A stretch of DNA of 64,000 bases, from contig NZ_CP031223.1 in NCBI RefSeq assembly GCF_008973485.1, positions 3,930,001 through 3,994,000 of the forward strand. The letters are read 5' to 3'. Position numbers and translations under genes: made by a program. Shown piece by piece: positions 20,926 through 58,500 of this stretch. Within the stretch, counting starts at the first letter, position 1; the number at the start of each line of letters is the position of its first letter. The notes below the pieces were generated by a model. The model was not told the DNA's origin and did not search any database. It was given only the letters and a program-made list of their open reading frames with translations. The DNA comes from Psychrobacillus glaciei. Lineage in GTDB: Bacteria > Bacillota > Bacilli > Bacillales_A > Planococcaceae.

Positions 20926-21110
20926 TCAAAAAACCCTTACTTTTCATAACTTCCCAAAAAAGAAAGAATGAAAAATAAGGGATTTAGAGACAGAGTAGTT
21001 TACACTACCCTCTTCTTCATACAAAATTTAATCAAACTTTCCTGTAGTCTAGTCTTTTACGGTTACTAGGTAGAAACGATCAGGCCATATTACTGATCAT
21101 ATACAAGAAA
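20926..21110 (-). promoter_or_regulatory. Guanine riboswitch (purine class) with terminator
   Basis: Read on the minus strand, the aptamer (21110-21036) shows AATATGG, GTTTCTACC, ACCGTAAA and GACTAC in the order and spacing of the purine riboswitch; P1 arms TTTCTTGTA and TACAGGAAA pair with one G-U. The residue that decides ligand is C (complement of 21044), so guanine or hypoxanthine rather than adenine. The expression platform is a terminator: CCCTTATTTTTCAT (from 20981) pairs with ATGAAAAGTAAGGG (to 20934) and is followed by six T. Ligand binding should shut off the nucleoside transporter gene. Confidence 0.95.
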
Positions 21111-21517
21111 AATGTTCATAGTATCAAATGGTATGAAAAAGATATTACTCGCTTCTTTTTCATTAATCAATACGTTGGCCCTTATTCGAAATCATAAAAT
21201 TATTGCAAAGGTTTACAAACATCTATTAATTCATATATGACATAGTATTAGCAAAGCTTTTTTTTTCATACTAATTAGGCGACATCCCCTATTTCTAGAC
21301 TTTTCGCTACATAAAAACTTGCTATTCAATAATCACTTTGCTTTTAATTGTGATTGAAAACACTTTTCCTAAGTTGTCTAAGTATTACCCATGATCTCAA
21401 GTATTAGCTAGAATTTCTTTAAAATTTATTCGTACATAGTAAAACGCTAAATTAAAGTTCTTATAATTTTGAAAATAATATATAATCATATGTAAATACT
21501 TGAAAGGAGTGTTATAA
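21111..21517. other. AT-rich intergenic region without a gene
   Basis: About 400 bp between the riboswitch and a tiny upstream ORF. It must contain the minus-strand promoter of the riboswitch transcript and a plus-strand promoter for the acetyltransferase; a TATAAT at 21481-21486 is a candidate -10 for the latter. No coding or repeat signal seen. Confidence 0.45.
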
Positions 21518-22281: not shown

Positions 22282-22598
22282 TATAAGTAAAAGCGATGAA
22301 GAGAAAAAGTAAAATGGTAGGATTTCTTTGAAGAGAGCTTCGGTAGCTGAAAAGAAGCAGAAAAACTCCGTTTGAACAATGGCCTCTGAGCTCTACATTG
22401 AACACGCAAATTGTTTGCGCTTGAGATGTAAGCGGGATTTGGTACCCGTTATCAATGCCACAGTTTAGAATTCATTTGGATAGAATTCTGTACTTGCAGA
22501 GGTCGCTTATGTGAGTAAGTGACGAATAAAGGTGGTAACACGAGTATAAAATCTCGTCCTTTTCAATCTAAATGATTGATGAGGACGGGATTTTTTTA
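22282..22598 (+). promoter_or_regulatory. T-box leader, AUG (methionine) specifier
   Basis: Stem I shows an AGTA loop-E strand (about 22306), the GAGAGCTTCGGTAGCTGA distal region and a 3' strand GAAC followed by the specifier ATG (22379-22381) and a purine, directly next to the lower helix CCTCT/AGAG. The T-box AAAGGTGGTAACACGAG is at 22528-22544. The terminator stem TCTCGTCCT (22552-22560) with AGGACGGGA (22582-22590) precedes seven T. Uncharged tRNA-Met should stabilise the antiterminator and switch on the downstream SAM hydrolase/ECF operon. Other in-loop codons (Asn AAU, Gly GGC) are less consistent with the position. Confidence 0.92.
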
Positions 22599-31785: not shown

Positions 31786-31836
31786 ACACCTTATAGCAAG
31801 CATAATATAAACTTAATTCAAAAAACACTAGCTTCC

Positions 31837-32095
31837 ATTAAGGGCACCTGGTCATCACCAATTCCCGAGTGATTTGGACTAAACATCGGCTACACTATTA
31901 ATGAAGAATTTCAAAGAGGATCTGGATGTGACTGCGTCACTTCCAGATCCTCTTTTTTCGGTAATCTTGTGGCGGATGTTTGTCCGTCGCCCTCTTGAAA
32001 TTGATAGAGACAAGGTACATAAGGTTTGGATAATGAGTGAATAAATCCTATTCTACTTTTTTAAAAGCGGACGAAGATACAATTTCGTCCGCTCT
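31837..32095. repeat. Dispersed structured repeat, copy A
   Basis: About 260 bp, matching copy B at 44571-44826. Conserved parts: GGCTACACTATT near 31888, a 41-bp core at 31961-32001 (one mismatch between copies), a block at 32017-32055 around CATAAGGTTTGG, and a last hairpin. Hairpin 1 (31916-31952) and hairpin 2 (32066-32093, AGCGGACGAA/TTCGTCCGCT, loop GATACAAT) have different arm sequences from copy B yet still pair. No ORF spans it. It lies between the MFS gene and a convergent gene. Confidence 0.8.
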
Positions 32096-32429
32096 GCTCT
32101 TCCTTATTAATGGATACTATCTACTTTTTCAGTTTCCACCAATTCGAATCATCTGCCCACTGATTCCTGTATACAGTGTACCGAAAAAGAAAAAAACAAA
32201 TTAGATCAAGCCCTTGTAAGGTTAAGTTAATACTAGATTTCTAGTATATCAATTTCATATACATTTGTATGAACACAGCAGCTTTACTCATATTTAAAAA
32301 TTAATAGGATATCCAATGACAATCAAAATAATGCCGGTTGAAAGTAGAAATTAGCTTTTTCGTGGTAGATGGTGGCTCACGTGAAACGGGAGCCATGGTA
32401 GTTTCTTATCTTTTTAAAAAGGTTGTCTC
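32096..32429. other. Intergenic stretch with inverted repeats
   Basis: No gene seen. ATACTAGA-TT-TCTAGTAT (32230-32247) is a perfect 8-2-8 inverted repeat reminiscent of the CTAGTATAT motif near the tetR gene. TGGCTC/GAGCCA (32373-32378 and 32390-32395) forms a second weak hairpin. The rest is AT-rich. Confidence 0.4.
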
Positions 32430-32451
32430 TTAAGTAGTTTCGCTACTTAAA
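32429..32451 (-). terminator. Possible terminator of the DUF2812 gene
   Basis: CTTAAGTAG and CTACTTAAG flank a TTTCG loop about 15 bp after the stop. On the minus strand a T-rich stretch follows only after several bases, so this may be a weak terminator. Confidence 0.5.
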
Positions 32452-32464
32452 GAAAACATTTTAT

Positions 32465-44534: not shown

Positions 44535-44570
44535 AAAAATATTAAACTTTTGAGAATAGCGACAACTGCG

Positions 44571-44826
44571 ATTTAAGTCCACCTTGTCCTTACTGTTTCC
44601 CAAGTACTTTGGACGGAACATTGGCTACACTATTGCCGTTGGAGATTTTGTAAATCGTGAAGTGAGGTACCTCACTTCACGATCCACTTTTTCTGTAATC
44701 TTGTGGCGGATGATTGTCCGTCGCCCTCTTGAAATGTGGAGTCACGATGCATAAGGTTTGGTTAATGAGAGATTAAATCCTGTCCTACTTATTAAAAGGC
44801 ATCCGAAGATACAATTTCGGATGCTC
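44571..44826. repeat. Dispersed structured repeat, copy B
   Basis: Partner of copy A at 31837-32095, same orientation. Conserved core at 44695-44735 differs from copy A at one base in 41. Hairpin 1 is a perfect 30-bp palindrome (44654-44683) with a sequence unrelated to that in copy A. Hairpin 2 is GCATCCGAA (44799-44807), loop GATACAAT, TTCGGATGC (44816-44824): three arm positions differ from copy A and all three are compensated on the other side. No ORF. Confidence 0.8.
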
Positions 44827-45041
44827 TTCACTTCTTGATTTTCTATAGTTCTACCAATAGTAAGATGAAAGCCATCTGTATGCTTTCTTCAATAAGTGAC
44901 CTTCAAATAGCAAGAACTACAAAACACTATAATTGCTTGCTTCCTAGCAATAGAATTCATAAAATTTTTTATCTAGCAAAAAAAATTATAGTGATTAACT
45001 TTTTATGTAAGAAGATAGTTTTTTGCATAATATATTGTTCA
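44827..45041. other. Intergenic, nothing recognised
   Basis: 215 bp of AT-rich sequence between repeat copy B and the end of the small membrane gene. No coding, repeat or terminator signal that I could support. Confidence 0.4.
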
Positions 45042-58330: not shown

Positions 58331-58500
58331 AAAAGCGCAAACGTCTATGTCTGCCCCGACAGGCAAATAGGGAAGTGTAGGTCTGCAAAGTTCACCACAT
58401 CCTGTGGCAAAGCAGACATGACCCGCATCGTGCGGGCCCAGGAGGCAGCTTCCCAGCCGCCACAGCTTTTTCACATTTGACCCCGATGGGCAAGGCGCTG
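58331..58500. repeat. GC-rich structured intergenic element
   Basis: 170 bp of clearly higher GC than its surroundings, bounded by AGCGC (58334) and GCGCT (58495). It folds on itself: TGCC/GGCA (58352-58364), GTCTGC/GCAGAC enclosing CCACA/TGTGG (58381-58416), CCCGCA/TGCGGG (58422-58436). I associate similar sequences with multi-copy intergenic elements of Bacillales, but only one copy is here. It separates the oxoacid dehydrogenase genes from the transporter/hpa genes and could act as terminator or processing site. The rest of the 339-bp gap is AT-rich with no gene. Confidence 0.55.

Follow-up and report, generated by a model that had tools for sequence, protein, structure and literature searches.

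Insertion directly behind intrinsic transcription terminators, combined with a preference for the lagging-strand template, has been tied to the group IIC (bacterial class C) introns, which insert just after rho-independent terminators, in the same direction as the terminator, and into the template of lagging-strand synthesis (PMC8919778; PMC10190682). Elements of the IS200/IS605 family and their non-autonomous derivatives also act on the lagging-strand template; they move by single-strand transposition, with cleavage by a Y1 transposase and a single-stranded DNA circle intermediate, and have asymmetric ends with subterminal hairpins, a 3′ end resembling the target, and a target of only a tetra- or pentanucleotide (PMC6006769), and they are not known to need a hairpin upstream of that target. 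Other dispersed repeats that invite comparison are the REP/REPIN sequences, high-copy intergenic palindromes of 20-65 nt associated with RAYT transposases; bcr1 and other TIR-bearing MITEs, which are small, gene-free, and intergenic; and the orphan Rfam family RF01690, Bacillaceae-1 RNA. We describe here a large family of gene-free elements in Psychrobacillus glaciei which shares its choice of target and strand with the group IIC introns of the same genome, but lacks detectable group II RNA domains and has ends that resemble those of IS200/IS605-type elements.

The starting point was a sequence-only reading of a 64,000-nucleotide stretch (the window; positions 3930001-3994000 of C1, contig NZ_CP031223.1, in a 4.35-Mb genome designated G000 below), which had described two copies of an intergenic repeat with covarying hairpins and had inferred selection on structure, acting either on a structured RNA or on a mobile or protein-binding DNA element. 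The observation itself was confirmed. The 31-nt probe GTAATCTTGTGGCGGATGNTTGTCCGTCGCC occurred exactly twice in the window against 0.00 expected from shuffles, the 41-nt core differed by one mismatch between the two copies, and the hairpin 2 arms AGCGGACGAA/TTCGTCCGCT and GCATCCGAA/TTCGGATGC around the loop GATACAAT were present as described, as was the change of sequence in the palindromic hairpin 1. However, the limits given were only part of the element, which is best read on the opposite (minus) strand, and the two copies are 2 of at least 104 in the genome. The features of the two copies are as follows.
31818-32412, minus strand: copy A, full extent, with its 5′ end AAGATAAGAAAC at about 32412 and its 3′ end AAGCTAGTGTTTTTTGAA at about 31818
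32416-32456, minus strand: target of copy A, a terminator-like hairpin (TTTAAGTAG/CTACTTAAG, extended by imperfect pairs) plus a T-run (32420-32416) behind the PadR/DUF2812 gene pair; the element starts about 3 nt after the T-run
32066-32093, minus strand: hairpin 2 of copy A (AGCGGACGAA/TTCGTCCGCT), followed on the element strand by TTTTAAAAAAGTAGAATAGG, that is, hairpin, T-run, and a 5′-end-like sequence (internal unit junction)
31961-32001, minus strand: 41-nt conserved core of copy A, one arm of the long imperfect stem
31916-31952, minus strand: hairpin 1 of copy A, the tip of the long stem, which covaries between copies
44551-44974, minus strand: copy B, with its 3′ end at about 44551 and an uncertain 5′ end (GATAAAAAATTTTATG after a T-run near 44978-44985); no clear terminator hairpin was seen upstream
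44799-44824, minus strand: hairpin 2 of copy B (GCATCCGAA/TTCGGATGC), a compensated variant
44695-44735, minus strand: core of copy B, one mismatch to copy A
44653-44684, minus strand: hairpin 1 of copy B

To determine how widely the repeat is distributed, we searched the whole genome. A similarity search returned 40 scored copies at 80-89% identity among 212 candidates, and a 27-nt core pattern allowing up to 3 mismatches, beyond which copies were not counted, occurred 104 times, whereas the reversed control pattern occurred 0 times. In all, 108 copies were collected and aligned with their flanks, which gave sharp ends. Read on the element strand, full-length copies run 5′-AAGATAAGAAAGTATAT...hairpin 2...core...hairpin 1...hairpin-TTTTTCTTA-3′; they begin with AAGATAAGAAAGTATATGG, continue through variable modules, and finish with a nearly constant 3′ part of about 300 nt comprising hairpin 2, the core, hairpin 1, and a mini-hairpin ending in TTTTTCTTA. 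The 3′ end GGACGCTTGCGTTTTTCTTA was found in about 100 copies and was followed by unrelated flank. Copies with both ends found measured 463-903 bp, and copies A and B contained no long ORF; one full-length copy, of 711 bp, lies at C1:53486-54196. The core arm pairs with the opposite flank of hairpin 1 to form one long imperfect stem. Hairpin 2 followed by TTTTAAAAGAATAGGAAAGTATC looks like a terminator followed by a second 5′ end, and one copy, c027, a solo downstream unit, starts exactly there behind a host terminator, so that the full-length form looks like a stack of units. The ends showed only about 7 nt of terminal complementarity (TAAGAAA/TTTCTTA) and no consistent target duplication, in contrast to the long terminal inverted repeats of TIR-type MITEs.

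We next asked whether the family belongs to a known RNA family. In the sequence-only reading, membership of the core in an Rfam family had been set as a point that would count against it, and the outcome was divided: no Rfam family covered copies A or B, and the core belongs to none, but one 5′ module of some full-length copies, 67 nt long, matched RF01690 at 72-76 bits against a gathering cut-off of 35. This module was absent from most copies. Of 68 RF01690 hits in the genome, about 24 lay beside a core in the expected orientation; the others lay mostly in other carriers that showed no fork bias. A second high-copy Bacillaceae-1 carrier was among these (for example at C1:1008145, 1248158, 1356501, and 1525068), its copies closely alike over several hundred bp and without fork-directed orientation. 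Within the window, a further Bacillaceae-1 hit (57 bits) at 58370-58436 on the plus strand lay in a different carrier that starts AATAAGAAAAGCGCAAACG, that is, with the same mini-hairpin end motif as the element studied here, suggesting a wider superfamily of Bacillales repeats sharing that end.

To examine the site of insertion, we inspected the sequences preceding the 5′ ends. All 41 detected 5′ ends, as judged by eye, sat a few nt behind a T-run that follows a hairpin unique to that site, or behind the terminator-like 3′ end of an earlier copy. A strict automatic detector found a terminator at 18 of 27 non-tandem sites against 131 of 4000 random positions (3.3%). Subfamilies with other 5′ modules, and elements of two congeners, behaved alike. 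Where an upstream gene was resolved, it was often co-directional and ended about 40 nt before the element.

The orientation of the copies was strongly biased. Taking dnaA at C1:331, 104 of 108 copies were co-directional with the replication fork (p=3e-26 against 0.5, and still 4e-9 against a bias of 0.75). Terminators in sampled stretches were fork-directed in only 15 of 21 cases, so terminator orientation alone does not account for the bias. Relatives were found in 19 of 19 congeners (different species of the genus, designated by G numbers below), and the bias was repeated in four of them: in G012, G014, and G008, whose origins lie at 2.14, 2.20, and 3.19 Mb, the hits changed sign at the origin, and G015 matched G000. 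The element strand is thus the template of lagging-strand synthesis.

Evidence for mobility came from empty sites and from the similarity of distant copies. At the dapA-terminator-rnjB locus, where this genome has elements, the terminator ran straight into the downstream sequence in twelve inspected congeners. At ytpR-sftA four inspected congeners were empty, while G008 carried an insert of its own ending GGACGCTAAGCGTTTTTATTGG, apparently an independent insertion of a related element behind the same ytpR terminator that is occupied in this genome. As the congeners are different species, these empty sites are not resolved to the base, and a target duplication of 1-2 nt cannot be excluded. Copies 2.4 Mb apart were 99.4% identical over 711 bp, and further pairs at distant loci were 99.0% and 98.6% identical, indicating that the family moved recently. 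The exact core pattern gave no hit in 85,000 reference genomes, although near relatives of the host may be left out of that set; the 5′-end pattern found six stretches there, in Sporolactobacillus, Sporosarcina, Paenibacillus, and Sporomusa, but with only 18-22 nt matching, which we attribute to chance; and searches of plasmids and phages at distant sensitivity gave no match. Searches of the open-access literature, which leaves out most subscription papers, found no description of such a family.

To ask whether the hairpins are maintained as RNA, we measured pairing across the 108 copies. Hairpin 1 truly covaries, with a mean of 15.75 of 17 Watson-Crick pairs against 13.17 when arms were shuffled (maximum 13.82) and nine different fully paired arms. 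In contrast, hairpin 2 was mostly one conserved sequence (54 of 56 fully paired copies identical; 8.99 pairs against 8.67 shuffled), and therefore copy B is an outlier there. As each strand-specific fold favors its own strand, a simple G-U test on such folds was discarded, and only pairs common to the folds of both strands were used. Read on the element strand, these broke about as often to A-C (318 cells) as to G-U (371), and for hairpin 1 alone the figures were 30 against 24, whereas selection on an RNA should spare G-U on one strand. The inserted copies therefore show no RNA-strand constraint. Covariation is also produced without selection when a quasi-palindrome is copied from one arm to the other, and such copying could yield the compensated changes seen here; the inference that covariation means selection is therefore too strong. 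The earlier interpretation was thus partly supported: its mobile element alternative is right, but a structured RNA under selection is not supported for the inserted copies.

We are highly confident that the family is a mobile, terminator-docking, fork-oriented element; how it moves is a more tentative matter. The explanation that we favor, although only narrowly and without strong confidence, is that these are non-autonomous, modular elements that insert into exposed single-stranded DNA of the lagging-strand template, directly 3′ of terminator hairpins. The ends, the terminator-adjacent position, the fork-directed orientation, the empty sites, the recent spread, and the tandem stacking behind earlier copies were all observed; that movement occurs at the DNA level, through cleavage by a Y1/HUH-type single-strand transposase acting in trans, is our inference. 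In this model the 3′ end of the element (mini-hairpin plus TTTTTCTTA) and the target (terminator hairpin plus TTTTTTTA), which it mirrors, would be cleaved alike, and the A-rich 5′ end TAAGAAAG, which is complementary to both, would act as the guide that pairs with them. The terminator-like 3′ end would re-create the target, so that new copies stack behind old ones; the hairpins would serve mobility, and after insertion copies would decay without visible constraint. The near equality of G-U and A-C is as expected for DNA or for no RNA constraint, and the lagging-strand-template orientation, asymmetric ends, A-rich possible guide at the 5′ end, and clean insertion are features shared with the IS200/IS605 family, whose mode of transposition fits the ends better than that of group IIC introns. 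The 3′ mini-hairpin paired at 2.66 of 4 positions against 2.30 in shuffles (maximum 2.49), whereas a 5′ subterminal hairpin was strong in only one subfamily and weak in most.

A Y1 transposase gene was found in 18 of 19 genomes, but G003 has relatives and no detected Y1 gene, and no transposase, neither tnpA nor tnpB, lies inside or beside the element. The single Y1 gene of this genome is not flanked by element ends; it resembles REP-associated (RAYT) transposases (74.9 bits, below the 80-bit cut-off) and sits beside a different palindrome, GGTGCCAGGCACC. RAYT as the linked transposase was rejected for this reason, and the elements also differ from REP sequences in their length and strong fork bias. 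A palindrome built on GGTGCCWGGCACC lay beside RAYT-like Y1 genes at seven loci in this genome (C1:997000-999600) and several congeners, and is probably their own REP. Where a palindrome was linked to a Y1 gene, it was never that of the element.

A second explanation, which we consider possible but unlikely, is that the elements are retroelement parasites of group IIC introns, the element RNA being taken up by the intron-encoded reverse transcriptase (or being itself an unrecognized reverse-splicing RNA), inserting at the same hairpin plus T-run targets, and being primed by the lagging strand. One mechanism would then explain both target and strand, which counts against the explanation that we favor. 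Three group IIC introns in this genome sit exactly so (TCAGCTTTTTTTA|GTGCGCC), and all nine hits to GIIM, the group II maturase, are fork-directed. However, Rfam found group II domains in two or three parts of each group IIC intron, which served as positive controls, but no domain V or D1-D4 in the elements; the elements have no reverse transcriptase, and their 5′ end, AAGATAAG, and 3′ end do not fit GTGYG...AY. Six of 19 congeners with relatives had no GIIM hit, including G012 with dozens of relatives, and there was no strand-specific G-U excess. Neither the group II introns of this genome nor those retrieved from congeners shared the element ends, which also argues against them as autonomous parents. 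A roughly 2-kb group II intron (Rfam D1-D4-6), seen at seven loci in congeners G014, G004, G006, G018, G009, and G001, is up to 96% identical between different species of the genus, suggesting recent horizontal spread. This genome also contains a 4.56-kb composite group II intron in 4-5 copies (near C1:2321307, 2346238, 3049464, 3562683, and 3215373) with two separate reverse-transcriptase ORFs and a further ORF (twintron-like), all fork-directed.

Less likely still is that another unidentified recombinase, or a host replication or repair process such as template switching at stalled terminator hairpins, spreads the elements. No dedicated enzyme is linked to them, the arm changes of hairpin 1 look like arm-to-arm copying, and tandem units are nested; however, sharp ends conserved over more than 100 copies and across species argue for specific end recognition. 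That the repeat is a structured non-coding RNA or chromosomal landmark kept for host function (Bacillaceae-1 RNA, a terminator back-up, or a fork-direction signal) is very improbable, for despite the RF01690 module in some copies and the strong fork polarity, that module is absent from most copies, the copies decay on both sides of stems without strand preference, and orthologous sites are empty in congeners, so that positions are not conserved.

Non-autonomous mobile elements are already known, as is terminator targeting with lagging-strand polarity by group IIC introns; what we consider new is a gene-free family that does the same without a detectable ribozyme. Such a family shows either that another enzyme class learned this safe-harbor targeting or that group II machinery mobilizes unrelated sequence in trans. 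It is conceivable, although less likely than not, that it represents a new class of non-autonomous bacterial elements that uses terminators as docking sites, carries a terminator-like 3′ end that re-creates the site, and is spread by a single-strand-DNA or reverse-transcription machinery yet to be recognized, possibly a bacterial counterpart of SINEs that parasitizes group IIC introns without having a ribozyme. The family also gives a partial context for Bacillaceae-1 RNA and a natural example of insertion that spares genes. Elsewhere, the small second contig of the genome resembles Lysinibacillus and Paenisporosarcina sequence in small parts only, and the window contains an ordinary T-box leader (22287-22564, plus strand) and an ordinary purine riboswitch (21025-21126, minus strand).
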